This document shows, piece by piece, positions 34,573-59,918 of a DNA stretch of 64,000 nucleotides; position 1 is the stretch's first letter, and each line of letters begins with the position of its first letter. Position numbers and translations under genes: made by a program. The notes below the pieces were generated by a model. That model saw only the letters and a program-made list of their open reading frames with translations, did no database searches and was not told the origin of the DNA. The DNA is from Roseivirga seohaensis (GTDB lineage: Bacteria > Bacteroidota > Bacteroidia > Cytophagales > Cyclobacteriaceae). The stretch spans positions 186,001-250,000 of the forward strand of contig NZ_LRPB01000049.1 of NCBI RefSeq assembly GCF_001592945.1, read 5' to 3'.

Positions 34573-36140
34573 AGATAGCAGACCTTTACATACGTGTAAG
34601 TACAGACGAACAAGCAGAAAAAGGGTACTCCCAAAGAAATCAGGAAGAAATGCTGTTGAAGTATTGCGGCATTCACAATATTCAGGTGCGCAACCTGATC
34701 TTTGAAGACCATTCGGCCAAAACCTTTGAACGCCCTGAGTGGAAAAAACTGCTGATTAACTTGCGCACGGCAAAGGCCAAACACAGCAAGGCAAACCTTA
34801 TACTGTTTACCAAGTGGGACCGTTTCAGCCGTAATGCGGGAGATGCCTATCAAATGATTGGAGTTTTGCGCAAGCTTGGTGTAGAACCACAGGCCATCGA
34901 GCAGCCCCTTGACCTTGCCATACCCGAAAATAAAATGATGTTGGCCTTCTATTTGGCAGCCCCAGAAGTGGAGAACGACAGGCGTGCCCTCAACACATAC
35001 TTTGGCATGCGCAGGGCAAGAAAGGAAGGCCGCTATATGGGCGTAGCACCAGTAGGGTATAAAAATACCCGTGACAAAGTAGGCAACAAAATCATTGCCT
35101 TTGACCAGCCACAGGCGTCCGTGCTGATATGGGCTTTTGAAGAGCTGGCAAAAGACAGGTTTGCAGCAGATGAAATACGAAAGATGGCCAATCAAAAAGG
35201 GCTCAGATGCAGCAAGTCCAACTTTTGGACAGTAATCCGCAACCCTGTTTATTGTGGTAAAATTAAAGTAGAGCAGTACAAAGACGAAGAAGCCCACCTT
35301 GTGGAAGGACAGCACGAAGCCTTGATTTCCGAACAATTGTTTTATACGGTACAGCAAGTATTGAATGATAGAAAAAAGAAATTGCGCACAGGAGCAAAAA
35401 TCACCTCCGATGAAATGCTGCCTTTAAGGGGGTTTTTAAAATGCCCCAAGTGTGACCGCATGTTAACGGGCAGTGCTTCCCGCAGCAGGTTAAAGCGCTA
35501 TTACTATTACTATCATTGTATATCCTCCTGTGGCATCCGCTACAAGGCGGCAGAGGCCAACGCCCTGTTTGAAAAAGAACTGGGGAAATTCAGGCTGAAG
35601 GATGGAATGGAAGAGGTGTATCGAAAGCTGGTCAAAGAAGTATATCTGGACGCTACCTCAAACCATCGGGAATCAAAGAAAAAGGCCATTGGGGAAATAG
35701 AAAGGCTAAATCAAAAGCTCACCAAGACACGTAACCTGCTTATTGCAGATGTCATTGACAGTGATGATTTTCAGGCGGTCAAAACAGACTGTCAGGAAAA
35801 AATAAGAAGGCTTGAAGCCACAGTAATAGCCTCAAATGAGCAAAGGCCAAACATTAATGCCACATTGGACAAAGCTTTGAGCAGCCTTTCCAACTTGGAT
35901 ATGCTCTACACCAATGCCCCTGTCAAAGAGAAACGTATCATAATAGGTTCAATATGGCCTGAAAACTTGACCTATGATGGAAAGTGCTATCGAACCCACA
36001 GGGTGAACACCGTTGCTTCTTATATATATACTGTAAATCAAGAGGTTATAAAAAAGAAAAGCCGTGCAAAATCAAGTTTTGCACGGCAGTTCGGTGTAGT
36101 AGCGGGAACAGGACTCGAACCTGTGACCTTTGGGTTATGA
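34569..36140 (+). CDS. Large serine recombinase
   Basis: Reads as 523 residues. The resolvase catalytic domain starts with YIRVSTDEQAEKGYSQ (catalytic serine S12) and includes FTKWDRFSRN. The recombinase domain follows (GYKNTRDKVGNK, FWTVIRNPVYCGKI), then a zinc ribbon with CPKCDRMLTGS and CISSCGIRY, and a coiled coil. It should integrate and excise the element. The last part is odd: from about codon 495 the frame runs through a tRNA terminator stem and into a tRNA 3' half, giving the ending GTGLEPVTFGL, with the stop in the anticodon loop. The original C-terminus was probably shorter or different. Confidence 0.9.
   Translation: MKIADLYIRVSTDEQAEKGYSQRNQEEMLLKYCGIHNIQVRNLIFEDHSAKTFERPEWKKLLINLRTAKAKHSKANLILFTKWDRFSRNAGDAYQMIGVLRKLGVEPQAIEQPLDLAIPENKMMLAFYLAAPEVENDRRALNTYFGMRRARKEGRYMGVAPVGYKNTRDKVGNKIIAFDQPQASVLIWAFEELAKDRFAADEIRKMANQKGLRCSKSNFWTVIRNPVYCGKIKVEQYKDEEAHLVEGQHEALISEQLFYTVQQVLNDRKKKLRTGAKITSDEMLPLRGFLKCPKCDRMLTGSASRSRLKRYYYYYHCISSCGIRYKAAEANALFEKELGKFRLKDGMEEVYRKLVKEVYLDATSNHRESKKKAIGEIERLNQKLTKTRNLLIADVIDSDDFQAVKTDCQEKIRRLEATVIASNEQRPNINATLDKALSSLSNLDMLYTNAPVKEKRIIIGSIWPENLTYDGKCYRTHRVNTVASYIYTVNQEVIKKKSRAKSSFARQFGVVAGTGLEPVTFGL
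36046..36090 (-). terminator. tRNA terminator on the minus strand
   Basis: GCCGTGCAAAA and TTTTGCACGGC (36061-36087) form an 11-bp stem with a 5-base loop. Read on the minus strand it is followed by a T-run (36046-36060 reversed). It lies just after the tRNA 3' end and inside the end of the recombinase frame. Confidence 0.85.
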
Positions 36141-36141
36141 G
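36100..36141 (-). tRNA. 3' half of tRNA-Met (CAT anticodon), attachment-site remnant
   Basis: On the minus strand one reads the anticodon loop CTCATAA, stem CCCAA, variable AGGTC, T-arm ACAGG-TTCGAGT-CCTGT, acceptor strand TCCCGCT and the discriminator A. The 5' half is missing: the five bases before the loop do not pair with CCCAA. It is therefore a displaced 3' fragment, as left when an element recombines at the anticodon-loop end of a tRNA gene. The element lies on the side of the break, to the right. Whether the parent is tRNA-Met or tRNA-Ile2 cannot be told. Confidence 0.85.
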
Positions 36142-36239
36142 CTTTAACATTATCGGTTTCATCTGGTTCAAAAAGGCTAATATGAGTAAATAATGGCCAT
36201 TTAAGTCTCAGATTGAACCGAATAATTCGAGTAAAAACA

Positions 36240-36312: not shown

Positions 36313-37650
36313 ATGGCATCAACTAAGCTTGTTCTCTGGAAATATAGACAAAAGAAAGATGGCACTTGTTCTCTGGCAATTCGTATAACCAAAGACAGAA
36401 AGACTCAGTACATCCATACTGGATACTTCATTCATGAGAAAGACTGGAACCCAGAACTTTCCAATGTCCGAAAGTCATACCCTAACTCGGCTCGTCTGAA
36501 CAACCTGCTCTTAAAGAGATTAAGTGAAGTGAATGACAGCATGCTTGAATCCGAGACACTAAACAAGGATGTTTCAAGCCGGGAGGTTAAGAAAAAAATT
36601 AAGAAGAAAAGTCGAACGAATTCATTCTTCAAATTTGCTGCAGATCGGATCGAAGGTAAGTTTCTAAGTGGTGTTTTCTCGGTTGCCAAATCTGAAAGAT
36701 CATTGCTTTGTAATATTGAAGAGTTTACAAATCTCAAAAAATCTCAATCTCTAGAGACAGCAAAAGCGGAAATCCTTCAGCGCAAACGAGAAAGAATATC
36801 TAAAGGCCGACAGCCAGGCTATTCATTCCTGGAAGAAGTCAAACTCATAGGCAAGAAACAGAACTTGTTTTTTGAAGACATTAATGAGGCATTTCTCAAC
36901 CAATTTAAAATTTTCTGTGCTTCTCATTTGGGAATGAAAACCCGCTCCATCACCAATCACCTTATGTTCATCAGAACTTTGTTCAATGATGCCATATCGG
37001 AAGGCATTGTTGAGGCCAAATATTATCCATTTGCTGGAGACAAGGAAAAAATACGTTTAGGAACAAGTCAGAAGATTGGGCTTACCAAAGAAGAGGTAAG
37101 AAGAATTGAGGCTTTGAACTTAGAACCAGAAACGCAGATATGGCATACTAGAAACGTATGGTTGTTTGCATATTATTTTGCAGGTATTCGAGTCTCAGAC
37201 GTTGTAAAACTCAAGTGGTCTGATATTAAAAGTGGGCGCTTATACTATGTAATGGATAAGAATGAAAAGCCGGTTTCCTTAAAAGTACCAGACAAAGCGA
37301 AGGCCATTCTCGAATGCTACAAGGATAGAAAGAATAAGAAGACAATATTTGTATTCCCTCACATGGATAAGGCAAATTTGAAAGACGAATTTGACGTTTT
37401 TGTTAAAGTCAGAAACGCAACTTCCCTACTCAACGATTACCTAAAACAAATTGCTTCAATGTGCGACATAGATAAAAATCTATCCAACCATATTGCTCGA
37501 CACACTTTCGGGAATATAGCAGGTGACAATGTACATCCTCTTATGCTGCAAAAACTCTACCGCCATACGGAGTTGAAGACTACCATAGGTTACCAGGCAA
37601 ACTTCATCACCAAACCTGCAGACGATGCTCTAGAGAGTGTTATTGGATAA
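36313..37650 (+). CDS. int: Tyrosine recombinase (Bacteroidota-type integrase)
   Basis: A 445-residue site-specific integrase. The N-terminal arm-binding domain (LWKYRQKKDGTCSLAIRI, then YFIHEKDWNP) is followed by a SAM-like core-binding domain (about 175-240) and a catalytic domain with R293 (GIRVSDVVKLKW), H393-x-x-R396 (HIARHTF), H418 and nucleophile Y427 (HTELKTTIGYQ). All catalytic residues are present. The gene starts 170 bases from the truncated tRNA-Met half, the usual place for the integrase of a tRNA-targeting island. It should insert the element to its right. Confidence 0.93.
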   Translation: MASTKLVLWKYRQKKDGTCSLAIRITKDRKTQYIHTGYFIHEKDWNPELSNVRKSYPNSARLNNLLLKRLSEVNDSMLESETLNKDVSSREVKKKIKKKSRTNSFFKFAADRIEGKFLSGVFSVAKSERSLLCNIEEFTNLKKSQSLETAKAEILQRKRERISKGRQPGYSFLEEVKLIGKKQNLFFEDINEAFLNQFKIFCASHLGMKTRSITNHLMFIRTLFNDAISEGIVEAKYYPFAGDKEKIRLGTSQKIGLTKEEVRRIEALNLEPETQIWHTRNVWLFAYYFAGIRVSDVVKLKWSDIKSGRLYYVMDKNEKPVSLKVPDKAKAILECYKDRKNKKTIFVFPHMDKANLKDEFDVFVKVRNATSLLNDYLKQIASMCDIDKNLSNHIARHTFGNIAGDNVHPLMLQKLYRHTELKTTIGYQANFITKPADDALESVIG

Positions 37651-37741: not shown

Positions 37742-38008
37742 ATGCAGGTTATTTGCCTAGAAGAGCAAGCATTTTACGAATTGATTGAGCAAGTTGTGGA
37801 GCGACTAAGTGAAAAACTTAATGTTCCAACTGATCGATGGATAGATGGTGAAGAAGCGATGAGCTTACTCAAAATCAAGTCTACTACCCTCCAGACATAT
37901 AGAGATGAGGGGAAAATCAGATACTCCCAGCCATCCAAGAAAGTCATTCTCTATGATCGACTATCTATTGAAGAATTTATCGAGAATAACGCCAAAGAAA
38001 CGTTTTGA
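37742..38008 (+). CDS. Excisionase-like helix-turn-helix protein
   Basis: An 88-residue protein. A helical front (EEQAFYELIEQVVERLSEKL) leads to a winged helix-turn-helix of the MerR/excisionase type: WIDGEEAMSLLKIKSTTLQTYRDEGKIRYSQPSKKVILYDRLSIEEFIE. This is the classic form of Xis-like proteins next to Bacteroidota integrases. It lies 91 bases after the integrase and overlaps the following gene. Likely role: directionality factor or transcription regulator of the element. Confidence 0.8.
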   Translation: MQVICLEEQAFYELIEQVVERLSEKLNVPTDRWIDGEEAMSLLKIKSTTLQTYRDEGKIRYSQPSKKVILYDRLSIEEFIENNAKETF

Positions 38009-38285: not shown

Positions 38286-39848
38286 ATGAGTCTATTCCGC
38301 AGAGAGAGCAAGATCAATTCCGCACCTGGTGAAAACCGTATAGAGGCCCTACTCGACCAAGAACTTATAAAAATGCCCGGTACAAACACCAAAATATCCT
38401 GGGGTGATTGTGTAGAGGGGATTTTGATAATGGGATCGACTGGTTCCGGGAAGTCGAGTGGCCCTGGAAAACATATTGCCATGGCCATGCTAAGGCAAGG
38501 GTTTGGATTTTGTATTCTATGCGCGAAAAATGATGAACGAAAGCGCTGGGAGGAATACGCCCAAAAAGCTGGCCGAACTGATGATTTGGTCATCATGAAC
38601 AAAAGCACAGGTCTAAAGTTCAATTTGCTCGAATATGAGATGAATAGAGAAGGCGAAGGAGCTGGTGATGTCCTAAACATCGTCAATGCCCTGATGAACC
38701 TGAATGAGCAAAATAAGGTGCATTTATCGGCTGCTAGTGGAAGTGAGGATCGTTTTTGGGACAACGCACTCAGGCGATTGATAGCCAGAATTGCTTCATT
38801 TCTTAAGCTTGGCGGTGAAACTCTGAGCATTCTTAAAATGCGTATCATTCTATCAGAGTCTTTTAATTCTGAAGATGTAAAACTTTATAATCATTTAGTA
38901 AACATTTCCCTCACCAAAGAAAAGATTGAAGCCACAGAAAGAAAGGAAGCCATTGACCAACTCGAAGCATGGAGAAAAAGGAGTTTGTTTTTGAGGCTCT
39001 TTGAAAAAATCAAAACAACCAACTTCGATACAGAAGAACAGCAATCCGAAGCACATATGGTTATTGATTTCTGGATTAAGGAGTTTGCCAACTTATCTGA
39101 ACGCCCACGCAGTATAGTACTGGAATCCCTAATGGGTGTAATAGAGCCATTTCTAAATCCAGGCATTTTAAAGAGTCAATTCTCGGAAGGCGTCAGCGAA
39201 GAACTTGTTCCTTCAAATATTATCAAGAACAAAAAAATCGTGATCATCGATTTCCCGATCAAGGAATTTGGCATATCGGCCATATATGCATCAACGCTTT
39301 ATAAGACAGCCTTTCAAGCTGCTCTTGAGCGAAGGGATATCACAACAGAAGATGACTTAAAGCCCATATCACTCTGGATAGACGAGTATCAGAATTTCTG
39401 CAATCCTACCAACGACACCCTATTCCAACTTACAGCAAGAAGTTCATGGGTATCTTCGATATTCATAACTCAGAATTTGAACAACATTTATTTTGTAATG
39501 GGTGACAAACAACCCGAGGCACGCACAAAAAGCCTTTTGGGAAATCTCAACTTAAAAATATTTGCTTCAAACTCTGATTCAGATACTAATCAATGGGCTT
39601 CTGATATGATTGGACAACATCTCTCAGTGCTCGAAAATTTAACAGTGAGTCCGGAAGGCAAAAAGACCAAAGCCTTTAATCAACAGCTCATGCCAAGGAT
39701 ACTTCCTGATCACTTTACAACTCTAAGAACTGGAGGGCTAGCAAATAAGCTGAAAGTAGATGCTGTGGTTTTCAAACCCGGGAAAAGTTGGATTTACGAT
39801 GATAAGGTGCAGAACTATGGCATTGTTGAGTTTGATCAAAGTGACTGA
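38286..39848 (+). CDS. VirD4/TraD-like coupling ATPase without membrane anchor
   Basis: A 520-residue ATPase. Walker A is GSTGSGKSS at about 50-58, close to the N-terminus. The Walker B region is PISLWIDEYQNF near 362-373, and SSIFITQNLNNIYF follows, as in VirD4 proteins. The usual N-terminal transmembrane segments of coupling proteins are absent. It may use another protein as anchor or act as a soluble translocase. Together with the MobF relaxase at 45281 it makes up the mobilization machinery of this element. No channel genes are present, so it would use a helper system (inference). Confidence 0.82.
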   Translation: MSLFRRESKINSAPGENRIEALLDQELIKMPGTNTKISWGDCVEGILIMGSTGSGKSSGPGKHIAMAMLRQGFGFCILCAKNDERKRWEEYAQKAGRTDDLVIMNKSTGLKFNLLEYEMNREGEGAGDVLNIVNALMNLNEQNKVHLSAASGSEDRFWDNALRRLIARIASFLKLGGETLSILKMRIILSESFNSEDVKLYNHLVNISLTKEKIEATERKEAIDQLEAWRKRSLFLRLFEKIKTTNFDTEEQQSEAHMVIDFWIKEFANLSERPRSIVLESLMGVIEPFLNPGILKSQFSEGVSEELVPSNIIKNKKIVIIDFPIKEFGISAIYASTLYKTAFQAALERRDITTEDDLKPISLWIDEYQNFCNPTNDTLFQLTARSSWVSSIFITQNLNNIYFVMGDKQPEARTKSLLGNLNLKIFASNSDSDTNQWASDMIGQHLSVLENLTVSPEGKKTKAFNQQLMPRILPDHFTTLRTGGLANKLKVDAVVFKPGKSWIYDDKVQNYGIVEFDQSD

Positions 39849-39981: not shown

Positions 39982-40293
39982 ATGGAAAAAATAGAGAATA
40001 AATTCAATTCGGAAACACATTCATATCAAGACGACCTCTTCTATCAAGAAGGGATTATGGAGTATATTGAAGACCTGTGCTGGAAGAATGAGCCAAAAAC
40101 ATGTCCATCTGAGTTCAGTAAAAAAATAGAAGATATTCTAACCAAATTCCCTTATCAACAAACCCATCTGGATAAAGCCTTGGAGTATGAAATTAATCAT
40201 GGTAAAGGCTCCTATAGAAGCTATGTGGAAAAAGGCTTAGAATCATTGGATTTCCATTCCCTAGCCGATGAACTATTCGGCCCCGAACGTTAA
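39982..40293 (+). CDS. Acidic hypothetical protein
   Basis: A 103-residue acidic protein, mostly helical: MEYIEDLCWKNEPKTCPSEF, KALEYEINHGKGSYRSY and LADELFGPER at the end. No motif is recognised. Its stop overlaps the stop of the convergent sigma-like gene by 4 bases. The preceding gap contains a clear TAnnTTTG promoter box. Confidence 0.6.
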   Translation: MEKIENKFNSETHSYQDDLFYQEGIMEYIEDLCWKNEPKTCPSEFSKKIEDILTKFPYQQTHLDKALEYEINHGKGSYRSYVEKGLESLDFHSLADELFGPER

Positions 40294-40991
40294 TGTGGGT
40301 ATTTTGACCAAATCGTAAAGAACTCAATCAACTTTTCTTTTTCAATTTTCAACTCTATAGAAACGGCTGAAAAATCGATTTTCTCATTCATATATTCAGC
40401 CCAATCGAACAATTGAACGGCAGCCAAAAATGGCCTAGCAGCATTTTTGGCTTTGTTGATGCATTCCCCGACATTGCGTATAGTCGTATTCAAAACATCT
40501 GCAATTTCCTTATAGCTCTGGCCTTTCAATCTCAGCATCAAAACAGTATATCTCTTTTCAGTTAGCACATCCTTCAGGCCAGGATGCAGATATAGAGGGG
40601 AATTGATCCCCTCCTCATTTGAAGAAGCTAAATAATATTGCTTCCTCAGTGGGGTAAATCTCAAATCCCTTCTTTTCAGTTTCCTTGCACCATACCTAAC
40701 CCCATTAAACAAATACCCCTTCACTCTATCTTCATTACTTTTTGATGCATCATCATGAGGTGCCGAAAGAGGGATAGCTTCAACCAATAATATCTCTGAA
40801 AGCTTTAAAACAGCATCCATGTATAAATCATTACCATCTTGAGTATCATACCCATACCTAAAAGCAATATTCATCAGTAGCGCTCTGAATTTCTTATCCG
40901 AGGGCTTTTTCATACGCATAATATCTTTGAGGATCTCAATCTGGCGATCGAGATCTCCTTGGCTTCCGTATGGCTTTGAATCGATGGACAT
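40290..40991 (-). CDS. Sigma-70-like / HTH regulatory protein
   Basis: About 233 residues from the ATG at 40991; a TTG at 41036 would add 15 residues but is a weaker start. The central region resembles sigma region 2 in charge pattern (GYLFNGVRYGARKLKRRDLRF). A clear region-4-type helix-turn-helix follows: LTEKRYTVLMLRLKGQSYKEIADVLNTTIRNVGECINKAKNAA. It may be a divergent ECF-like sigma factor or a sigma-like regulator of the element. It is transcribed divergently from the HTH/hydrolase-like gene at 41111, with 119 bases between them. Confidence 0.7.
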   Translation of the reverse strand: MSIDSKPYGSQGDLDRQIEILKDIMRMKKPSDKKFRALLMNIAFRYGYDTQDGNDLYMDAVLKLSEILLVEAIPLSAPHDDASKSNEDRVKGYLFNGVRYGARKLKRRDLRFTPLRKQYYLASSNEEGINSPLYLHPGLKDVLTEKRYTVLMLRLKGQSYKEIADVLNTTIRNVGECINKAKNAARPFLAAVQLFDWAEYMNEKIDFSAVSIELKIEKEKLIEFFTIWSKYPH

Positions 40992-41110
40992 AATGAAATA
41001 TCTAAAAGTAACTATTTTGTTCTTAATAACAAACAAAATGTTTTTTATGTGAATATTTCTTTCACTTAAAACAAATTATGACCACATTCTGAAATTTAGT
41101 AACTTCCATT

Positions 41111-42394
41111 ATGGAACCAGACATGAATTTGACAGAGTACATAAATTGCTTAGAATTGGAATTGAGCAAAGCATACCCTAGAAAAAAGCAAGCGGATATC
41201 GCAACTTCTCTAGGTTTTGGGCTTACTACATACCACAAGATTTTTGGCAAAAAGCAGGTTTCCTCAAGTACACTTGATGACATTGCCAAAAAAATATCCT
41301 TTGTTACTTATGAACAATTTATAGCTCGAAGACCCCTCCTTTTAGCCTTTGAAGAACATCTTCTTGATGAAAGTAATTCTTGGAAATCTTACTGTTTCAA
41401 TAAGCGCAGAAGAATGTATGAATCAAACTGGACCTTTAAAAAAAGGAAAAGGAGGTGTGATGAAAAGAATGAAAACTGCGAGGAATATATTGAAGTAACT
41501 AGAGAGACAATTGATTACCATTATAAGGGAGAGATGGTTATTAATCCTGATCTTACTATCTCCATTTCCATTCGAACCAACCCTGATTTCCGCGTAAACT
41601 ATTTCACCAAACTGCCTGAAGTCAAGCACTCCGATTTTTTCGACAATTTGAATTTCCTAATTCTTGAAGCGTCCGCGGTTAGAAGGAAAGAAACCTTTAC
41701 CACAATGGAACTGCTTGTGCGATCCGATAAAGCGATAAAACCTAGGGTTATAGAATATGAGAATATCCATCCAATAAGCAATGAAAAAGGCATTCCACAA
41801 AACCAATCCTATTTGGCCTTTAACTATTTGACGAGGAATGTATCAAAATCCAGAAGGAACATAGATAACTACGACATCAATATTCAAAACGAATTGGGTG
41901 GTTTTTTAAATTACACTCATCAAATTTTTATATCCTGTCCAATTGGTTTCATCACCAAACGTGAACAGTTTGATCAACTAAAATTCACAATTGATCAAAT
42001 CATCGAAGTGCTTATTTCCAACTTTAGATTTACTCGTGATAACATCTTTTGCGAAATCGCCAAGTATAAAACCTTTGATGACATTCGCGTAGATGATCGA
42101 TTTGTTTTCTTCGAAACAAGGAAATTCATAAAAGCAACACATTTCATATCTGTTCTTCCAGAAGCCTTACTCAATCATAATTCTGGGGCTTACATGGAAA
42201 TCTATTTTAGAATACTGAAGAAAATGCCTGCCATTGTATTCGTTGAGAATAGAAAAATCCTACCGTCATTGTTGCAAGGGTTACTTGACAACCCAGATAG
42301 GCCAATAAATTTTGCCGTTAAAGATATCGAACTGAAAGAAATCCCATCATATATGAAATCGGCAACACAATACTTGTTCTCATTTTCTCTTTAG
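41111..42394 (+). CDS. HTH protein fused to a nucleoside-deoxyribosyltransferase/TIR-like domain
   Basis: A 427-residue protein. Residues about 15-55 form an XRE-like helix-turn-helix (KKQADIATSLGFGLTTYHKIFG). The middle is charged with a beta-rich part. The last 150 residues have the nucleotide-hydrolase layout: a first strand IFISCPIGF (about 270-278), DDRFVFFETRKFIKATHFI, and SGAYMEIYF with candidate catalytic E363, then PAIVFVENR. The SGxxxE signature and strand order resemble nucleoside 2-deoxyribosyltransferase, SLOG and TIR-like folds. An enzyme acting on NAD or a nucleotide is plausible but unproven. First gene of a three-gene cassette. Confidence 0.6.
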   Translation: MEPDMNLTEYINCLELELSKAYPRKKQADIATSLGFGLTTYHKIFGKKQVSSSTLDDIAKKISFVTYEQFIARRPLLLAFEEHLLDESNSWKSYCFNKRRRMYESNWTFKKRKRRCDEKNENCEEYIEVTRETIDYHYKGEMVINPDLTISISIRTNPDFRVNYFTKLPEVKHSDFFDNLNFLILEASAVRRKETFTTMELLVRSDKAIKPRVIEYENIHPISNEKGIPQNQSYLAFNYLTRNVSKSRRNIDNYDINIQNELGGFLNYTHQIFISCPIGFITKREQFDQLKFTIDQIIEVLISNFRFTRDNIFCEIAKYKTFDDIRVDDRFVFFETRKFIKATHFISVLPEALLNHNSGAYMEIYFRILKKMPAIVFVENRKILPSLLQGLLDNPDRPINFAVKDIELKEIPSYMKSATQYLFSFSL

Positions 42395-42492
42395 TAAAAA
42401 GTTTAGTTGACCAACTAATAAAATAGTCACATCTGGATATAGTAGTGAATGCCGACCAGGAGGTCGGTGCTTCAATTCTAAATACTATATCT

Positions 42493-44424
42493 ATGAAAAC
42501 GCTGAAATCATTCCTCAAGAACATTCTCGGCTTTCTGGGCCAGTTCTTCTCTGCAAGAGAAAGAGCCATCAAGAAAGAGTACAGATTAATGCTCCTGAAA
42601 TTCAAGGAGACTTCCGAAAAGGCCTTTGAATCAGGCCTTAGGGGTATTCACGACACCATTGAATTTCAAGAGATTGTCAAGAGTGTCGCCAACGCAACAA
42701 AGAAGAAACTGGAAAGCTTCTTCCCTAAGATCACCATTTTCAATGCAAGACTTGATGAAATCGTTAAAGAGCAGCAGGTCAGTTTGGATGAAATGAGAGA
42801 GCAGGAGAAAAGAAGAATTATGCCGACTGTTTATGCAAGCATTTTTAAGGTTCTCGCTAGCATAATTCCAGCCCAAGATCGACTGAACGTAGTCAGGACT
42901 AAAATCACTCTCCTGAGAGCGAAAGCACGAGTTTCTAATGGAGCTCTTAGAAGAATGATTGTAGATACGCCAAAAGCAATTTTTGTTTCACTAGTCATTA
43001 TAAACATTCTGGAGGTAATTTTTTCGACTGCAACATTCGAATCAATGGGCTACTGGCAGATTACCGGAGCATTGATTGCCTTTGGCCTATCTTTAATGTT
43101 GGGATATTCAGCCTTGATGACTGCAAAGTCCTATCATGAGTTTGAGACAAGAAAGGCTATCGCATGGTTGAGCATTGGCAGCTTCATAGTTTCAATTCTC
43201 AACATTGCCCGTATTCGTGAAGGGTTAGATATTTTCCCAGGACTAATCCTTATTGCACTGTTTGCTACGAGTATCATGCTCATGTTAGCCTACCTCAAGA
43301 ACAAAGAGCATTTTGACATTGTAGATGAACTCCTTAAAACCGAACGAGAAGAAGCACAACTTGAAACATTCATATTTGGGCAAAAAAACTTGGTTATACA
43401 GCTTCACTTAGAAGGAGTGGCTCAAATTGAAGAAGCCGTCCAAGGCCGTGTAACTCAAAACAAACAAGACTATTCGACTTATTACCTGGCCTTAGAAGCA
43501 GAGCAGGCTAGATTGGATACGGCTTTAGATTTTGTTGATACCTTAAAAGACAGTGCCTTAGCCTATGTTGCCCAACTCCATTCAGAAGGACTGTCCTCCA
43601 CCACATTTCGTGATGATATGTTCAATGACTCTGAGCCAGCGAGCGAGGCCAAGAATTTTTGGCGAAATGCCGCAATGACATTGATCACGATTATCGCTTT
43701 TTCGTCACTATCAAGTTGTAGCATAATCTCAGATGATAATAATAATAATAATAATAATAATGATGATGATCACATCTCAATTTTTATCAACACCGATGAG
43801 ACCGAATCAATTCCTGAGGGGCAGACAACCGCAAAAAGCGTTTACGATTTTATCGTTAACGAGAAACTTAACCTTGATGAGGAACCAATAATCAGCTCTC
43901 GTGTGGATGTTCACCTAAGCCACATCAGTGATAGCTCATTGCCTACAATAGTAACCGTATCCTTGAGCAAAGGCAGTCATCGTTTATTAACCAACGGACC
44001 GAGCCGAAAAAAGGAAATAGAATCGTTCAAGTTGAAATTGATGGAAGCCATTGAACAAAACTTCGAGGCTAAACCCACCAAAAGCAGAACCATCATCTAC
44101 AGGAACATTTTGAACCAGTTTGAAATGCTCAGGCAAGTTAAAGGTCATAAATCCATGATCCTTATCACGGATTTCATGGAGGAAGGTAGTATCACCTTTA
44201 CGGCTTATGAGGAAGCTCCTCAACGACTGAGAAATGAAGCTGAGAAAATCAGGGAATTGTTTGAAAAGCAAAGCAGTCCATTAGGAGACTTAACAGGTAT
44301 AGATATTTACATGGTCTATACAACTCATGGGAACGGTGAGGATCTGTTATACTATTCTCGCATGTTCTTTTATGACTGGTTCAAGGATGCAGGAGCTAGT
44401 ACCTCATTAAGGCCAAACTTTTGA
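42493..44424 (+). CDS. Membrane protein with a vWA-like C-terminal domain and asparagine tract
   Basis: 643 residues from the ATG at 42493 (a GTG at 42445 is an alternative). Residues 1-150 are basic and coiled; about four transmembrane helices follow (residues about 160-275), then a long coil. Near residue 405 a second hydrophobic stretch (TLITIIAFSSLSSC) looks like a lipoprotein signal and is followed by eight asparagines coded by an AAT repeat. The C-terminal 200 residues (ISIFINTDET, then KSMILITDFMEEG, then IDIYMVYTTHG) alternate strands and helices like a von Willebrand A domain. I do not recognise the full protein. Confidence 0.6.
   Translation: MKTLKSFLKNILGFLGQFFSARERAIKKEYRLMLLKFKETSEKAFESGLRGIHDTIEFQEIVKSVANATKKKLESFFPKITIFNARLDEIVKEQQVSLDEMREQEKRRIMPTVYASIFKVLASIIPAQDRLNVVRTKITLLRAKARVSNGALRRMIVDTPKAIFVSLVIINILEVIFSTATFESMGYWQITGALIAFGLSLMLGYSALMTAKSYHEFETRKAIAWLSIGSFIVSILNIARIREGLDIFPGLILIALFATSIMLMLAYLKNKEHFDIVDELLKTEREEAQLETFIFGQKNLVIQLHLEGVAQIEEAVQGRVTQNKQDYSTYYLALEAEQARLDTALDFVDTLKDSALAYVAQLHSEGLSSTTFRDDMFNDSEPASEAKNFWRNAAMTLITIIAFSSLSSCSIISDDNNNNNNNNDDDHISIFINTDETESIPEGQTTAKSVYDFIVNEKLNLDEEPIISSRVDVHLSHISDSSLPTIVTVSLSKGSHRLLTNGPSRKKEIESFKLKLMEAIEQNFEAKPTKSRTIIYRNILNQFEMLRQVKGHKSMILITDFMEEGSITFTAYEEAPQRLRNEAEKIRELFEKQSSPLGDLTGIDIYMVYTTHGNGEDLLYYSRMFFYDWFKDAGASTSLRPNF
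43738..43761 (+). repeat. (AAT)8 trinucleotide microsatellite within a gene
   Basis: Eight AAT units flanked by GAT units encode a run of asparagine between aspartates. Length changes of whole units would keep the frame and alter the linker length. Confidence 0.95.
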
Positions 44425-44427
44425 GAG

Positions 44428-45141
44428 ATGAGAACCGAACAAACTCATTTCGAAGATAAATCTCGTGGCAGGTGTTATGGAGACAAGGCACTTTACATGG
44501 GATTTAAGCAGTCTAGCCTGATCAGGGATTTGTGTATTGGGAAGAGAGAAGCACCTTATCAGGTTGCTTCTCTCTGGATCAACTTTAACAGAGCCATATT
44601 CACTTATAGTGGTTACATTGTCACCAGGTTCAACTTTGGTTCACAGAAATTTGGCCTCATTTTCTTTTGCTTCATTCTACTCATGCAGTTATGTATTGGA
44701 AGTGGAGCCATCCCGATCATTCTGAAACCACTTGTTCCATATAGCTTTGCCCTGCTGCCCATCTGGTATGACCATAGTGAGCTTTTTGACATTTTCATTG
44801 GACGTACAAGGTCGTATGCATTGCTGTCTTATTCGGCACTCACCTTGCTCTTCGGAGCCATCCATTTGGTGAGGCTGTGGTTTGTAAAGGACATTGACTT
44901 GAACAGCTCTGGAGAAAGCTTTCTATACATAACACTTGAAAAGACCAAACTTAAGGTGAGTGAGTCCTCTGTAGCCTACATAGAGGCCCTACTCTTTCTT
45001 GTCATTGGTGTGCTTAGTTGGAGATATTGGAATGATCCCTATTTCGGCTTTTTTATGATCATGGTGGGCATTTGCTCTTGGTCATCAGAATTCGACAAAA
45101 ATTCGGATATCGATCACCAAAAGTCGATTTCATCTATATGA
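44428..45141 (+). CDS. Integral membrane protein of unknown function
   Basis: A 237-residue protein with four or five hydrophobic segments: about 70-90, 92-108, 128-150, 185-197 and 203-215. The N-terminal part is cytosolic and charged, and the end is acidic (EFDKNSDIDHQKS). It starts 4 bases after the stop of the vWA-like gene, so they form one operon. No family is recognised. A membrane partner for the upstream vWA-like protein is the simplest reading. Confidence 0.6.
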   Translation: MRTEQTHFEDKSRGRCYGDKALYMGFKQSSLIRDLCIGKREAPYQVASLWINFNRAIFTYSGYIVTRFNFGSQKFGLIFFCFILLMQLCIGSGAIPIILKPLVPYSFALLPIWYDHSELFDIFIGRTRSYALLSYSALTLLFGAIHLVRLWFVKDIDLNSSGESFLYITLEKTKLKVSESSVAYIEALLFLVIGVLSWRYWNDPYFGFFMIMVGICSWSSEFDKNSDIDHQKSISSI

Positions 45142-45280: not shown

Positions 45281-48055
45281 ATGCTTCGCATTACTACATT
45301 CATGGCAGAGGCCATTTTTCTATATCTAGGTTCTGATCTAACCAAAGACAATGACTATTTCATAACCAAAGATATCAAGGTTCTATTTGAGGGAGAGACT
45401 TCAAAACTGCTGAATCTCCATAGTACGCAAGTTACCAAGGAACTGTTTAGAAAAATCGCTTATAACATTGACCCCAGAGTACCAGGAGATATTACTCTCA
45501 CCGCCAGAAATGTCGCCAATCGAAAAAGTGCTTTTGACTTTTGCTTTTCAGCGAGCAAGTCTGTCTCAGTCATGCATTTTGCAACTCAGGAGCCCGCAAT
45601 CCTAAAGGCGCATCAGCTTGCTGTTCGAAAGGCAATACGTTTTGTCGAAGAGAACACGATTACGCAAGCCAATTCTCAGAGGAATCGTGGCTATGAACAC
45701 ACCGGCAATATCATGCTCATGGTATTTGATCATTTTACTTCGAGACCTGTGGAAGTGGAATTAGAGGGTAGAAAATTTATCCCGGATTGCCAAATACACA
45801 GCCATGCAATTGTGCCCAATATCACCTGGAATCCACATAAAAACAGGTTTCAAGCTTTGGAAATGGGGAAAATACACGAGATAGCCCCATATGTGGAAGA
45901 GGTGTATCATTCACACCTGAGTAAAGAATTGGTCAAGGCTGGCTATGCTCTTCGGAGGACAAAAGACCGTTATGAAATCGAGGGAGTATCCAGAGAAATT
46001 ATTGATCGCTTTTCAAACCGAACAGCGCAGATTGAAAAAATCGCAAAAGAACAAAATATCACTGACCCGGTTGAAAAAGCCAAATTGGGCGCTTATTCAA
46101 GAGCCTCAAAGGCCAAAGCTGAAAAAGACCTCGATCTAGATAAAATCTGGTTGGACAGGCTTTCAAAGGAAGAGTTAGAAAAGCTTCGATCACTTAAAGG
46201 TAAGTCACAAAAGCCCAACAGGACAATTACTGCGAAGGAGGCAGTAGACCTATCCCTTTCCCACCATCTCCAACGCAATTCGACAGCAAAGGAAAAAATG
46301 GTACTCGCCCATGCCCTAAAATTAGGTTATGGACAATTGCTCCCCGAGGATGTCTCTGCAGAACTGAACAGTAGGGAAAATATTCTCAAAAATGATGTCG
46401 ATATGGTGTCCCATATAACGACCAAGGAATTGGTTTTTGAAGAAAACCGGATGATCAGTCTGGCCTCGGAGGGCAAGGGGAAATTCAAACCCTTGAATCC
46501 AAACTATGTTCCTGATGTGGATTACCTCAATGACCAGCAATTGGCGGCCATCCATCAAATCCTCCATTCTAGGAGTCAAACGAATATTTTACGCGGATAT
46601 GCTGGGGTCGGTAAAACCAGCCTTCTTGTTCAGGTCAAACAAGCCGTTGAACAGACAGGCATGTCTTTCTTTGGGGTAGCTACGAGCGCACAAGCTTCGC
46701 GTGGGGTAATGCGTCAAAAAGGTTTCGATGCAGATACGGTGGCAGCACTGCTTAACAATCCTCAATTGCAGAAAGAAAAACTGACCAATGGCTGCCTCCT
46801 GGTGGATGAGGCAGGGACTCTGGGTGTGAAGAATATGGCAGAAATTCTGGCTCTGGCTAAAAAATATAATGCGCGACTGATATTAAGTGGTGACACTCGA
46901 CAGCATGGTCCTCCTGGTCAATATGGAGACTCTTTAAGGATTCTTGAATCCAAAGCGAAAATAGAAACTGCCACGGTACAAAAAATAGTCCGTCAGAAAC
47001 AAACTGATCTTAAAAAAGCAGTTGAGAGGCTCAGTACAGGTAAGACAGATCAGGCCTACCGCATTCTTGATAAAATGGGGGCCATTCAACAAATCCCTGA
47101 TCGTGACAAACGCCTGGCAACAATTGCTGAGGACTATACTAGGTCAATCAAAGCGAAAAGGAGCGCAATGATCATCAGTCCAACCAATGCTGAAGGAGAC
47201 GCTATAGCACAGGTCGTACGAGCGCGCCTGAGACAGGAAAAAATTTTACAGGGTAAGGAAAGGCTTTTTGAAACTCTCAAAAGCCTTTCACTTACAGAAG
47301 CGCAGAAAAAAGATGCCGTCAACTATGATTTGGGGCATCTGGTACGCTTCTCAAAAAACCAGATAGGGGGGCTAAAAGCCGGAAGTCATTATGAGGTCAA
47401 AACCATAGACAAGAACGGAAATATCATGATTAGGGAGCCCAAGTCGGACAAAATGTTCCGCTTGCCGGTAGAGACTCCAGAGTATTTTGAGCTCTATGAA
47501 AAACGTCAGACGGCTTTGAGTAAAGGCGACATAATCCGGTTGACCAACAACCTGAAGACCATCGAGAAAACAAAGGTCAATAATGGTTCGAATTATCAGG
47601 TAAAAGGATTTACCCGAACCGGGGATATCAAGCTGAGCAATGGGAATACCTTATCCAAAGACGCCATGCATTTTAAGCAGGGCTATGTAGAAACCTCACA
47701 TAGCAGCCAGGGCAAGGACTGTCAGGACATATATATCGAAATGTCTGATAAATCGATAGCTGCCGTTAATCAGCAGCAATTCTATGTGTCCGTTTCAAGG
47801 GGTATTCATTCAGCCAGAATATACACACACGATAAGGAAGAAATGAAACGTGCGGCAATGCGCAGTGCGGATCGTATGACGGCCAAGGAAGTGGCTAAAG
47901 GACATCAGGAAAGGCTGATGAGAGAAAAACAGATATCGCATTATCAGGATTTAAACCAGAGACAGCAAGACAATGGAAGAACCCAGAGAAAACAACCGAC
48001 CATTGAGCTCGGCCTTCAGGCAGGGTCATACGGATCAGGAATCGACAGAAGCTGA
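45281..48055 (+). CDS. MobF-family relaxase-helicase (TrwC/TraI type)
   Basis: A 924-residue bifunctional protein. The N-terminal relaxase begins MLRI as is usual for the family, and carries the candidate catalytic tyrosine in NDYFITKD, the SKSVSV block and the metal-binding pair H173-S-H175 (QIHSHAIVPN). The C-terminal SF1 helicase has Walker A GYAGVGKTS at 439-447, LLVDEAGTLG at about 507, and the late motif GYVETSHSSQGKD. It would nick and unwind the element for transfer. This is a different relaxase family from the MobB protein at 9141, so two distinct mobilization systems lie in one window. Confidence 0.92.
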   Translation: MLRITTFMAEAIFLYLGSDLTKDNDYFITKDIKVLFEGETSKLLNLHSTQVTKELFRKIAYNIDPRVPGDITLTARNVANRKSAFDFCFSASKSVSVMHFATQEPAILKAHQLAVRKAIRFVEENTITQANSQRNRGYEHTGNIMLMVFDHFTSRPVEVELEGRKFIPDCQIHSHAIVPNITWNPHKNRFQALEMGKIHEIAPYVEEVYHSHLSKELVKAGYALRRTKDRYEIEGVSREIIDRFSNRTAQIEKIAKEQNITDPVEKAKLGAYSRASKAKAEKDLDLDKIWLDRLSKEELEKLRSLKGKSQKPNRTITAKEAVDLSLSHHLQRNSTAKEKMVLAHALKLGYGQLLPEDVSAELNSRENILKNDVDMVSHITTKELVFEENRMISLASEGKGKFKPLNPNYVPDVDYLNDQQLAAIHQILHSRSQTNILRGYAGVGKTSLLVQVKQAVEQTGMSFFGVATSAQASRGVMRQKGFDADTVAALLNNPQLQKEKLTNGCLLVDEAGTLGVKNMAEILALAKKYNARLILSGDTRQHGPPGQYGDSLRILESKAKIETATVQKIVRQKQTDLKKAVERLSTGKTDQAYRILDKMGAIQQIPDRDKRLATIAEDYTRSIKAKRSAMIISPTNAEGDAIAQVVRARLRQEKILQGKERLFETLKSLSLTEAQKKDAVNYDLGHLVRFSKNQIGGLKAGSHYEVKTIDKNGNIMIREPKSDKMFRLPVETPEYFELYEKRQTALSKGDIIRLTNNLKTIEKTKVNNGSNYQVKGFTRTGDIKLSNGNTLSKDAMHFKQGYVETSHSSQGKDCQDIYIEMSDKSIAAVNQQQFYVSVSRGIHSARIYTHDKEEMKRAAMRSADRMTAKEVAKGHQERLMREKQISHYQDLNQRQQDNGRTQRKQPTIELGLQAGSYGSGIDRS

Positions 48056-48398
48056 TTTCCTAATTGGAGAGGAACACGAATACTATGCTGTACATGCTAA
48101 GGAAAGTTCGCCTAAGAGACTAAAGCTGTATTTGCGCACCTCCGAACGTATCAGCCTTCCCTACTCCCTTCTACCTATCATTATGTTGGTAGACGGCTCA
48201 AAGCTATACATTAAAGCGCATGAGTTGCTGGTAACGATCCAAGGAAGAAATCTAGACCCCTTGGAAGAAGCCCTATCATTGGAACACGTCAAGTGGATTA
48301 AAGAAAGCCCTTCTGGAACAGATACCTTAGATGCCGAAACCTTTGTTGAGAGCATTACGGTTGAAGGCAAAGCAATAGAAAAATATGTTGAACCATAA
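47973..48398 (+). CDS. Hypothetical protein overlapping the relaxase
   Basis: A 141-residue acidic protein that begins 83 bases inside the 3' end of the relaxase gene, in another frame. It has a central beta-rich stretch (SLPYSLLPIIMLVDGSKLYIKAHELLVTIQGRN) and an acidic end. No family is recognised. The long overlap makes the early ATG less certain. It is followed 11 bases later by another small gene. Confidence 0.55.
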   Translation: MEEPRENNRPLSSAFRQGHTDQESTEADFLIGEEHEYYAVHAKESSPKRLKLYLRTSERISLPYSLLPIIMLVDGSKLYIKAHELLVTIQGRNLDPLEEALSLEHVKWIKESPSGTDTLDAETFVESITVEGKAIEKYVEP

Positions 48399-48409
48399 AC
48401 CCAAAAACC

Positions 48410-48904
48410 TTGAAAAAGAAAGATCAAAATGGGCTTTCCAATCAAAAGCCCGTTAAGGATGAATTCTCATCCAGCACGAAAAAAGAGTACAGTTCTAAAC
48501 ATAAGGAAAAAGCAGTTGAAGATCCGGATTTATCTCATCATGCGCTTATCGAAAAGCTTGATACTTACAGCAAAACCAACATTGAAGAGAATGTAGACGA
48601 CTATTTTGCATTTCAGAGGATGAAAGACAAATACATGGATGAAATAAAGCAAAAGGATGCAGACAGGATAAAAGGCGCAGTTCATTACGCTCAAGGACAA
48701 AGAGCAGGACTACCGCAGGCCGACTATGACACCCTTAAGCAGGGTCATGAACTTCAGGACCAAAACCTTCGAAATAATGTGGTGCGTGAAGCTGGCGAAT
48801 ACTACAAGAAAAATAACAACTTGAATAAAATTTATAATCAGGAAAGTCAGAAGACAAATGAACCTGATCAATCAAAAGATAAAGGATTGGACATTGAGAA
48901 GTAG
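48410..48904 (+). CDS. Hydrophilic hypothetical protein
   Basis: A 164-residue very charged, mostly helical protein starting at a TTG. The middle contains YFAFQRMKDKYMDEIKQKDADRIKGAVHYAQGQRAG. It resembles structural accessory proteins encoded after relaxases but has no clear family. No signal or membrane segment. Last gene of the mobilization unit before a noncoding gap. Confidence 0.55.
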   Translation: MKKKDQNGLSNQKPVKDEFSSSTKKEYSSKHKEKAVEDPDLSHHALIEKLDTYSKTNIEENVDDYFAFQRMKDKYMDEIKQKDADRIKGAVHYAQGQRAGLPQADYDTLKQGHELQDQNLRNNVVREAGEYYKKNNNLNKIYNQESQKTNEPDQSKDKGLDIEK

Positions 48905-57934: not shown

Positions 57935-59677
57935 CTATTCCTTATCGTAATCAAGTTCAACCTGAACCCCTAACAGTTTGTGAGCTTCTGACTCATCTGT
58001 CAGTTCAAGAACAGTATTTTCTTCGATAATTTCAGAATACTTTTCCTCTCCAAGATATTGTTTAGTGGCTTCCAGTACATTTTCATTTGCCGAAATAATG
58101 TATTGAAGGTTAAATTCTTGAGTTTGCTTATGTGCTATTTCGAATAAAGTGGCTACCTGGCGAGGGTCAATTTCAGATAACAACCTTCCATCATGAAATA
58201 GAAACTTAACTGTATGATTATTTTGGCCTTTCAGCATTGTCCAATCGTAGCAGAAGATCTTAATATAGTTAACACCATCCCCCTTATCGTCATCAATTTT
58301 CGCTTTAATATCAAACCTATTTTTATTCTTACCATCATTGTTGTGAATCTCAATTCCAGCTCTTTTCTTTCCATAGAATTGATCAGCAAAAAACTTAAAT
58401 AATTTGATGTTCTTTCTTATCAGGTCGGACTGATCGTTTAGGTAGTTATTCGTTTTAATATTCTCATCGCTGAATTCCTTTGTAAATTCTTCCTGTTTAT
58501 TTTTGAATTCATTGATTAGGTTTTTGTATTGCTCTAATTTCTCAAGCCTTAATTTGAAACTCCTTAATTGATCATTCATGTTGGTGAATTCATCAAGAGC
58601 GCCCTTGGTGTTTAAGTAGCCAAGTTTTTCATCCTTTTTCCTGCCTAGGGTTCTTATTATTTCACTTATATCATGTAATTCCTTTTCAAAACTTTGCTTC
58701 TCCTTAAATAACCTCCGCCCCCGATTATCCGTTAATTTTTCATTGAAGCTCTGTACCTCATCCAGTCTTTTTATAACCATTTCCGGCAACTCCAGTCTTG
58801 CCTGCTTGTAAAAATTTTCAATTTTTGTTCTTGAAACATCTGGCTGGATTTCTAAGCTCTGATCAATATTGTAGATAGCTCTCTTTATCCTCTCAGCTCT
58901 GTTCTCGTATTCTTGTATTTGCCGCTTCAAATGGTCTGCTTCTTCAACTATTTCGTGATAATCTTCTGCGACTTGAAAGCCTTTAAGTCTATTCTCTAAA
59001 AGTTCAATGTTTTGCTTAAGGTCATAAATGTCTATTTCAATGTCTTCTCCTTCTTCAAAGAAGGACTTCATAATTTCATCGTTCTCAATCCCCTTTCTTC
59101 TTTTATCTATATCGTCTATTTCATCCTTTAATTCAGCCTTTCTTTGAACCAAATAAGGATCCAAACCCAGTAAGAATGCATTATTCAAGAGTTGGGGGTA
59201 ATCTTGTTCTTTATTGATGAACTTATAGTAGCTGTTATACCCAAATTTATTCGGGCGAATAAATCTTGAAATTAGACTCCTAAATTTTAGGAATTTGATT
59301 GGCTCTGGAAGCTTAAAGACTTTCGATTCTAAATAGTCCTTATAGTCTTGTAGAGAATATTCTTTCTCATTTAAAAAAACCTTATTTTGTTCTTTACACT
59401 TTCTTGTTGCGATAAATTTTTTCTCACCAATTTCAAACTCAAGTGTAAATTCCCAATCATTTAACTTTTCTTCAAATTCTAAGTTAGGATTAGACCCTAG
59501 ACAAAAATGAACTAAAGCGATTGAAAGCGACTTACCAACGCTATTATAGGTGTTTTTGCGGTTAACTAGGGTCTCGTTTGTTTGATGTTTTTTGCCGACA
59601 ATTAAACTAATCCCAGTTCGATTAAATGGGATAGTCCTAAAAGACTTCTTATTTGACCTTAACTCAATTAATCGCAT
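57935..59677 (-). CDS. ABC-3C system ATPase (DUF2326, SMC-like)
   Basis: A 580-residue protein. The N-terminus has the Walker A-like NSVGKSLSIALVHFCLG within the ATPase head. A long coiled coil spans residues about 170-430 (DEIDDIDKRRKG, QNIELLENRLKGF, SFKLRLEKLEQYKN). The C-terminal head has FHDGRLLSEIDPRQVATLFEIAHKQTQEFNLQYIISANEN. This is the SMC-like ATPase of ABC-three-component systems. It should sense a trigger and activate the nuclease partner. It overlaps the middle-component gene by 14 bases and is the last gene of the operon. Confidence 0.88.
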   Translation of the reverse strand: MRLIELRSNKKSFRTIPFNRTGISLIVGKKHQTNETLVNRKNTYNSVGKSLSIALVHFCLGSNPNLEFEEKLNDWEFTLEFEIGEKKFIATRKCKEQNKVFLNEKEYSLQDYKDYLESKVFKLPEPIKFLKFRSLISRFIRPNKFGYNSYYKFINKEQDYPQLLNNAFLLGLDPYLVQRKAELKDEIDDIDKRRKGIENDEIMKSFFEEGEDIEIDIYDLKQNIELLENRLKGFQVAEDYHEIVEEADHLKRQIQEYENRAERIKRAIYNIDQSLEIQPDVSRTKIENFYKQARLELPEMVIKRLDEVQSFNEKLTDNRGRRLFKEKQSFEKELHDISEIIRTLGRKKDEKLGYLNTKGALDEFTNMNDQLRSFKLRLEKLEQYKNLINEFKNKQEEFTKEFSDENIKTNNYLNDQSDLIRKNIKLFKFFADQFYGKKRAGIEIHNNDGKNKNRFDIKAKIDDDKGDGVNYIKIFCYDWTMLKGQNNHTVKFLFHDGRLLSEIDPRQVATLFEIAHKQTQEFNLQYIISANENVLEATKQYLGEEKYSEIIEENTVLELTDESEAHKLLGVQVELDYDKE

Positions 59678-59915
59678 TGTAGATTCTGTCTTCTGTATCT
59701 AAATCAATAGCACCAATTGCATAGAGATAATTGAGGGTTAATACAAGATCATCAAAACCGTGATAAGCATCAAAACTCTTACTCTTATTCAGCTTAACGA
59801 CTTTTTTCCAGAGTTCGTCAATATTGAGAGGTCTGATTTGTATGTAACTGAGAACATATGCCCCTAAGCCAAACAACGATTCAGAAACTCTAATATGTTT
59901 AGTGGGTAAAATCAT
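59664..59915 (-). CDS. ABC-3C middle component (MC6-like)
   Basis: An 83-residue protein beginning ILPTKHIRVSESLFGLGAYVLSYI and continuing LNIDELWKKVVK and LVLTLNYLYAIGAIDLD. This is the short middle-component pattern of ABC-3C operons (MC6 type). It lies 3 bases after the nuclease gene and overlaps the ATPase gene. It probably links effector and ATPase. Confidence 0.85.
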   Translation of the reverse strand: MILPTKHIRVSESLFGLGAYVLSYIQIRPLNIDELWKKVVKLNKSKSFDAYHGFDDLVLTLNYLYAIGAIDLDTEDRIYNAIN

Positions 59916-59918
59916 TGT

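Follow-up and report, generated by a model that had tools for sequence, protein, structure and literature searches.

Probable transfer module of an integrative mobilizable element from Roseivirga seohaensis with a vWA-like membrane protein and a probable partner of the coupling protein

According to the accessible part of a review, coupling proteins without a membrane domain rely on small membrane proteins, and TraG-TraJ pairs are also known (PMC7434980). The same text describes the closest cases, TraJ/TraI of pIP501 and TraG-TraJ of R27, where a VirD4/TraG-type ATPase, free of a membrane domain or paired, is adjacent to a multi-transmembrane protein of about 200 residues. For integrative mobilizable elements (IMEs), the accessible part of a 2017 review states that no canonical IME was then known with a MobF relaxase, and that the few IMEs of Bacteroidetes included none encoding a coupling protein (PMC5704250). 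Here, three consecutive genes (41111-45141) were investigated in a stretch of 64,000 nucleotides from Roseivirga seohaensis, hereafter called the window. A reading of the sequence alone had put them forward as a candidate for an undescribed defence system, consisting of a hydrolase-like protein with a helix-turn-helix (HTH), a membrane protein with a vWA-like end and, as its partner, a further membrane protein. The present analysis indicates that this locus probably serves as the transfer module of an IME. The strongest link of the second and third genes is with transfer functions, which leads to a reading of them as a split coupling protein plus a vWA accessory.

The locus shares with pIP501 and R27 the ATPase type. 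A membrane protein adjacent to the ATPase is encoded in 17 islands of the family, and in the window four ORFs lie between the two. In contrast to pIP501 and R27, the locus represents MobF elements from the order, family and phylum of the window (Bacteroidota, and Cytophagales by the record of a Runella plasmid), library searches gave no above-cut-off match for its partner family, and a vWA module joins in one clade. Integrase, tRNA attachment repeats, own relaxase and coupling protein are shared with IMEs, and no mating pore was found with three profiles; unlike the IMEs covered by the accessible part of the 2017 review, the element has a MobF relaxase together with a coupling protein. No description recognised as the vWA/membrane-partner module was met in the accessible portions of the literature searched. 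The comparison offers a testable hypothesis for those mobilizable elements of Bacteroidota that combine a MobF relaxase with a soluble coupling protein. They may reach a foreign mating pore by means of a dedicated membrane anchor and, in one clade, a periplasmic vWA protein that would dock or gate. It also cautions against taking every gene found amid transfer genes for defence cargo.

The element and its transfer genes

The left attachment site (36097..36142) is duplicated at contig position C48:262523-262568 (window coordinate 76523-76568) as a direct repeat of 46 bp with 44 identical positions (blastn). As a control, the best of 100 shuffled 46-mers reached 29 identities in the same sequence. 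The right copy is the 3' end of a tRNA-Met gene, the left copy immediately precedes a tyrosine integrase, and an extra, identical repeat of 24 bp is present just within both ends. The 46-bp repeats at tRNA-Met thus delimit an element some 40.5 kb long (36.1-76.6 kb in window coordinates), with the three genes inside. Besides these attachment repeats and the integrase, the element brings a MobF relaxase and a coupling ATPase of its own. Single-sequence profiles for the mating-pore proteins VirB4, TraJ and TraM, taken from the neighbouring integrative and conjugative element (ICE), gave 0 matches in 36.1-76.6 kb, a search by which distant pores could be missed, and 0 matches at E below 1e-8 in the other mapped loci. 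The neighbour, located at about 9000-31000 of the window, carries CTnDOT-type transfer genes, its own MobA/VirD2-like relaxase and a YWFCY coupling protein. With its pore genes at about 22-31 kb, it is a possible helper.

The three genes are genuine open reading frames (ORFs) on the same strand (41111-42394, 427 aa; 42445-44424, 659 aa; 44428-45141, 237 aa). They are separated by 50 and 3 bases, and the relaxase gene starts 139 bases further on. Their setting between mobilization genes, as stated earlier, was confirmed, with a TraG/TraD-type coupling protein upstream and a TrwC/MobF relaxase downstream. The divergent sigma-like gene stands as an ORF, while its family match remained just below cut-off. 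The features of the module are the following.

36097..36142, no strand: left attachment site, copy of the tRNA-Met 3' end (blastn 44/46)
36313..37650, plus strand: tyrosine integrase of the element (PF17293, PF13102, PF00589), adjoining the left attachment site
37742..38008, plus strand: small, putatively AlpA/excisionase-like protein recurring in related islands (profile matches in other islands)
38286..39848, plus strand: type IV coupling protein, no N-terminal transmembrane domain (PF12696 1e-8, PF10412 1.4e-4; P-loop at residue 50)
39982..40293, plus strand: 103-aa protein (no profile match in other mapped islands)
40290..41036, minus strand: divergent protein with a sigma-region-4-like HTH, possible regulator (PF08281 E 1.4e-5, 25.1 bits versus a cut-off of 25.7)
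41111..42394, plus strand: variable-position gene, 427 aa, with HTH-like N terminus, SGAYME and possible Ndt/TIR-like C terminus (no relatives found)
42445..44424, plus strand: 659-aa protein with, by its layout, a helical part, four transmembrane segments, a coil, a fifth transmembrane segment and a predicted periplasmic vWA part (GTG start)
43711..44424, plus strand: end of a lipobox-like stretch (SLSSC) and vWA-like domain (MIDAS DETES ... TD)
44428..45141, plus strand: 237-aa membrane protein, probable membrane partner of the coupling protein (family in 33/39 islands; profile-profile 92.8-94.4%)
45281..48055, plus strand: MobF (TrwC-type) relaxase-helicase (PF08751 7e-47, PF13604 7.8e-40)
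47973..48398, plus strand: 141-aa protein adjoining the relaxase, recurring in related islands (profile matches)
48410..48904, plus strand: 164-aa protein, relaxase-linked in close islands (profile matches)

The conservation of this arrangement was investigated in 39 islands, consisting of 37 places with the coupling protein (window included) and two obtained from the vWA profile and the relaxase scan. The coupling-protein search gave 20 places in 16 of 390 genomes at the level of the order (E up to 1e-30) and 23 places in 18 of 390 genomes at that of the family (E up to 1e-60). The vWA profile matched 6 of 296 genomes of the phylum, the window's own included, and the relaxase scan returned four loci, which were two already-known islands, the new island L057 and the fragment L058, left uncounted. 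Each island was counted once, L042-L049 being extensions and L055 and L056 duplicates of known islands. Maps were made of mechanical ORFs with longest starts and reach over about 4-20 kb around the coupling genes; any vWA gene farther off would be missed. The iterated mapping profiles were built from the same islands that they then mapped. Transmembrane segments were assigned by a hydropathy scan (19-residue window, cut-off 1.6); the segments of the ICE coupling protein escaped detection at this value, and coupling proteins were therefore rechecked at 1.0. Signal peptides and lipoboxes were assigned by pattern or by eye.

A vWA gene was present in 16 of the 39 islands (window, L005, L007-L009, L025-L032, L034, L050, L057), while 17 had the membrane protein and no vWA gene in the mapped stretch (L013-L024, L037-L041), three had neither (L010-L012) and three were interrupted by contig ends (L033, L035, L036). 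Among uncut islands, its presence followed the identity of the coupling protein to that of the window, with 12/12 at 50% or more, 2/6 at 38-45% and 0/16 at 36% or less. The vWA gene adjoins the membrane gene in all 16 vWA islands, and the relaxase gene comes directly after this pair in 14 of them, overlapping it by 4 bases in L026 and by 1 base in L057. The vWA-like membrane protein and its membrane partner, a pair noted before within the mobilization locus of the window, therefore recur as such. In the 17 vWA-free islands, the membrane gene directly follows the coupling gene, with an overlap of 4-8 bases in L016, L038 and L040. The earlier view of the pair as cargo is not supported by these two positions, and an isolated defence cassette was rejected as improbable in view of the synteny with relaxase or coupling gene. 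As a separate observation, two convergent MobF relaxase genes about 1.7 kb apart and a second copy of the membrane family were seen in L034/L049, as if two such elements adjoined each other.

The coupling proteins themselves appear to be soluble. All 37 sequences longer than 480 aa (three of them duplicates) have their P-loop at residue 32-76, and only one (L022) showed a hydrophobic segment before it at cut-off 1.0, whereas four were detected in the control ICE coupling protein. The window protein had no such segment, even at this cut-off. In contrast, hydropathy gave three transmembrane segments in the 237-aa protein, for which no Pfam or NCBIfam family was obtained above cut-off and no PADLOC family at E up to 1. 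Its family (about 240 aa) was detected in 33 of 39 islands; it was not found in three and was cut by contig ends in three others. Among 837 ORFs, 34 of its 35 matches were located within two ORFs of a coupling, relaxase or vWA gene. Profile-profile comparison of the vWA-linked members (16 islands) with the coupling-linked members (17 islands) gave 94.4%, and 92.8% without the bridging sequence L038. The null, made of 35 unrelated multi-transmembrane proteins against both profiles (70 comparisons), reached a maximum of 0.96%. Single coupling-linked members scored 0.66-34.6% against the vWA-linked profile, 15 of 16 lying above the null. By this profile comparison, both families are homologous. 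As the coupling proteins lack a membrane domain, the 237-aa protein is probably the anchor of the coupling ATPase.

The coupling protein also matched two plasmids, one of which has a non-membrane protein downstream. The Runella sp. SP2 plasmid pSP2_3 (L086, 11293 bp), typed as mobilizable in keeping with a transfer reading, carries this type of coupling protein with a MobF relaxase; the membrane-family protein was not detected there.

The 659-aa protein and its vWA-like domain

Hydropathy analysis of the 659-aa protein confirmed the four clustered transmembrane segments announced by the sequence-only reading and added a fifth one ahead of the vWA part. The C-terminal ~230 residues align with vWA-like proteins which are encoded by separate genes in 12 of the 16 islands. 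Helical part, transmembrane/coil part and vWA part are three genes in 11 of the 16 (L025 by layout only) and a single protein in the window, L005 and L007, L029 and L034 being intermediate. In an alignment made without L050 and L057, the pattern D-x-[S/T]-x-S of the metal ion-dependent adhesion site (MIDAS) is conserved in 11 of the 13 aligned islands with this column (not in L042 and L048), and the later MIDAS aspartate in 13 of 14 (not in L048); the window has DETES and TD. The vWA assignment is thus supported by the MIDAS pattern and not by Pfam, where no family match to the domain was obtained; the whole 659-aa protein likewise gave no NCBIfam match above cut-off and no PADLOC match at E up to 1.

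Searches against the PDB were less clear. The 12-row vWA profile had the vWA domain of TRAP as top match (4f1j, E 0.0041), while a narrower profile had RNase A on top (E 0.0036), which makes the PDB evidence for vWA weak. The RNase A matches were taken as chance, since they cover a 40-residue stretch of an unrelated fold. With the first and second proteins as queries, nothing or chance-level matches were returned. A further candidate vWA relative (G396/L004) was discarded, being a broken frame amid ribosomal and RNA polymerase genes. Plasmid searches gave 0 matches for the first and second proteins, the vWA and NDT7 proteins of L008 (NDT7 being a family described below), the transmembrane/coil protein of L053 and the membrane protein of L014. 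The viral contig collection gave 0 matches for the first protein, the L052 vWA protein, NDT7, the relaxase and the third protein.

Taken with the transfer setting, these features are best read as a coupling protein split in two, complemented by a vWA accessory for docking to, or gating, the pore of a helper, a reading to which we give a probability of roughly 55%. The 237-aa protein would anchor the soluble coupling ATPase in the inner membrane, and the 659-aa protein would surround or extend this anchor. Its periplasmic, metal-binding vWA face could then dock to, or gate, a mating pore supplied by a helper, for example of the CTnDOT type. The first gene and the divergent sigma-like gene would be locally acquired regulators, or cargo, at a freely varying position.

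Several observations weigh against this reading. The membrane gene of the window is separated from the coupling gene by four ORFs, and L010-L012 have coupling protein and relaxase with no detectable membrane partner. In L005 and L034, the pair is located beyond the coupling gene and points away from the relaxase. The profile of the membrane family was seeded from proteins at these very positions, so the count of its linkage to transfer genes is partly circular. The homology of the fused transmembrane/coil part to the separate transmembrane/coil proteins is weak (hhalign 7-42%; phmmer 2.4e-6 for L005 and 0.009 for L030), and the fusion consequently rests on layout and on the vWA part. The absence of a pore was judged with just the three single-sequence profiles mentioned above. 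Finally, distant vWA relatives occur outside transfer loci, in a CRISPR operon (L052), as lone pairs (L053 and L054) and with OmpA genes in Proteobacteria.

The N termini of the vWA-like relatives are relevant for another explanation. The lipobox pattern fits 7 of 15, and most others look signal-peptide-like by eye. Such starts would also suit an exclusion or competition function, in which the periplasmic vWA protein and its membrane partners block the entry of related elements into the recipient, or the transfer of the helper itself. The layout, as if co-transcribed with transfer genes, and the low identity of the vWA rows to that of the window (16-21%), as expected of specificity factors, are in line with this. 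However, a donor-side role predicts the same layout, and no family match to a known exclusion protein was obtained. We consider exclusion an improbable function of the pair.

The gene at the variable position

The 427-aa product of the first gene had been described as a fusion of an HTH with a domain bearing an SGxxxE signature, suggesting consumption of NAD or nucleotides. The signature is indeed present as SGAYME. The HTH was not confirmed, its best matches being a PHROG transcriptional regulator at E 0.06 (residues 26-60) and a TetR-type regulator of the PDB at E 0.8, and the nucleotide-hydrolase fold found no profile support. The protein had no Pfam, PADLOC or NCBIfam match. Compared by hhalign with the NDT7, DUF4062 and TIR sets, it remained below 1%, while the control pair DUF4062-TIR gave 89%, also with two faulty rows in the sets (L064 on the wrong strand, L070 empty). 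Likeness to the DUF4062/TIR-like NADase defence known as Swarozyc, in the accessible part of its description (PMC13174449), is by motif of the C terminus only, with no profile similarity.

No relative of the first protein was found when 394 further genomes of its class were searched, nor when 84,980 species were covered by a pattern scan which reaches close relatives only, nor in the viral collection or by tblastn on plasmids. The position beside the vWA gene is taken by other families in all 15 vWA-bearing relatives. The family designated NDT7 occupies it in seven (L005, L008, L009, L026, L029, L030, L034), divergent from the vWA gene in 7/7. Another family is found in three (L007, L025, L031), and two more in three (L027, L050, L057) and two (L028, L032), respectively. 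Different genes use this position in the related elements examined, and the first gene is a one-off there. The proposal of the three genes as one unit was not supported by this comparison; they were not seen together elsewhere, while the second and third were.

An abortive system consuming NAD or nucleotides, with the 41111-42394 product as its enzyme, is very unlikely. In its favour, SGAYME and the strand-like start IFISC resemble what we take to be Ndt/TIR-like signatures. Against it stand the lack of any family match, the hhalign values and the absence of relatives. Moreover, in the seven NDT7 proteins the corresponding Ndt-like motif, comparable by analogy only, shows Q in four and E in L030 and L043, while L048 has neither. 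An Ndt/TIR enzyme was accordingly rejected as a demonstrated identity of the first protein.

The NDT7 proteins (L005 12818-14257, L008 11109-12491, L029 8715-10385, L030 10512-11897, L034 10750-12288, L043 3136-4515, L048 4816-6204) possibly have a beta-rich middle and an Ndt-like C terminus, and the motif [FY][ST]xV[QE][LI]G[WF]A is present in five of the seven. The two members scanned had no Pfam match above cut-off. In hhalign comparisons, the NDT7 C termini reached 7.9% with the DUF4062 set and 1.5% with the TIR set. A PF05014 search of 45 genomes gave no result.

vWA relatives outside the islands and defence genes

The vWA-like protein family, for which the searched libraries gave no match, is now placed in four kinds of context, and the distant relatives outside the islands are the following. 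In L051, a MobP-type transfer operon that counts as an independent case for the transfer reading, a transmembrane/coil and a vWA gene lie directly upstream of a different coupling protein (PF02534 6e-50), without transmembrane segments at cut-off 1.6, and of a PF03432 relaxase. In L052 (645-12793), a type III-A CRISPR operon encodes Cas10, Csm2, a RAMP protein, Csm4 and a CARF protein, followed by two transmembrane proteins and a vWA-like lipoprotein. Lone transmembrane/coil-vWA pairs were found in L053 and L054. The L052 vWA protein had tblastn matches in 17 plasmid records; among the five of these regions inspected, three show an OmpA-family gene, a hypothetical or zinc-ribbon protein and a vWA-like gene in a row, and two are unannotated. 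The rows (L059 5481-9384, L060 5573-9447, L061 5504-9471) belong to plasmids of Pantoea, Paraburkholderia and Aliarcobacter. Their middle protein is multi-transmembrane in L059 and L061, the two scanned, and the vWA-like protein is annotated as hypothetical. Two aspartates are invariant across 12 vWA-like proteins of this kind.

Two described groups of systems were compared with these operons. In the accessible part of their description (PMC2875224), the FtsZl1/vWA/OmpA membrane-remodelling operons have vWA proteins, some with signal peptides, with a mostly intact MIDAS and OmpA-type and transmembrane neighbours. The proteobacterial OmpA-transmembrane-vWA operons may be kin to them. The islands differ in carrying transfer genes, and the vWA islands are without the FtsZ-like GTP-binding motif; a scan for GG[GA]TG[STA]G gave a single match among 997 ORFs, in the fragment L058, which had no detected vWA gene, and 0 among 91 ORFs of five proteobacterial loci. 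The vWA-MoxR-VMAP conflict systems likewise have a vWA protein in a multi-gene system and are reported near type III CRISPR loci, in the accessible part of the source (PMC10910872). In contrast, the vWA part looks periplasmic here.

The CRISPR case and the variable neighbour gene keep a defence reading alive. It places a defence module within the transfer operon, in which the transmembrane/coil-vWA protein would be a membrane effector, switched by variable sensors (HTH/SGxxxE, NDT7, CARF) and protecting or killing the host. Besides the vWA relative of the type III-A operon, which lies behind a CARF gene, such a module would explain the change of the neighbouring gene (NDT7 in 7, three other families in 8 of 15 relatives). 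One NDT7 protein has a weak PADLOC match to a TIR effector (E 0.02), and the element carries several defence systems. However, PADLOC returned 0 families for the four proteins of the window that were scanned, with E values up to 1 allowed. In 14 of 16 islands the relaxase gene comes immediately after the pair, and in 17 others the membrane gene stands behind the coupling gene with no vWA gene in the mapped stretch. L052 is a single case, and homology of its transmembrane/coil protein with that of the islands was not supported (hhalign 33.9%, 45 columns). We consider this defence role unlikely, though it keeps some weight.

A wider view of the contexts is possible, albeit tentative. The transmembrane/coil part and the periplasmic metal-binding vWA part could form a reusable envelope module, recruited by unrelated machines in MobF, MobP-type, cyclic-nucleotide-linked type III CRISPR and OmpA operons. 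A swappable sensor or regulator beside it could time the envelope gate, and the window would hold the most condensed, fused form.

Recognisable defence genes of the element start 12.8 kb downstream of the three-gene cassette, towards the other end. An ABC three-component set (window 57935-60857, minus strand) consists of a DUF2326 ATPase (PADLOC PDC-M68B), MC6 and CTD10 (PDC-M68A), and a Mrr-type restriction enzyme (PF04471, PF14338) is encoded at window 63097-63993 (minus strand). Type I restriction-modification genes (L089 806-7994, minus strand) belong to the same element. A Gabija pair (L089 8813-12366, plus strand; C48 258813-262366), with GajA at 3.9e-265 and GajB at 6.6e-223, abuts the right end of the element at tRNA-Met.

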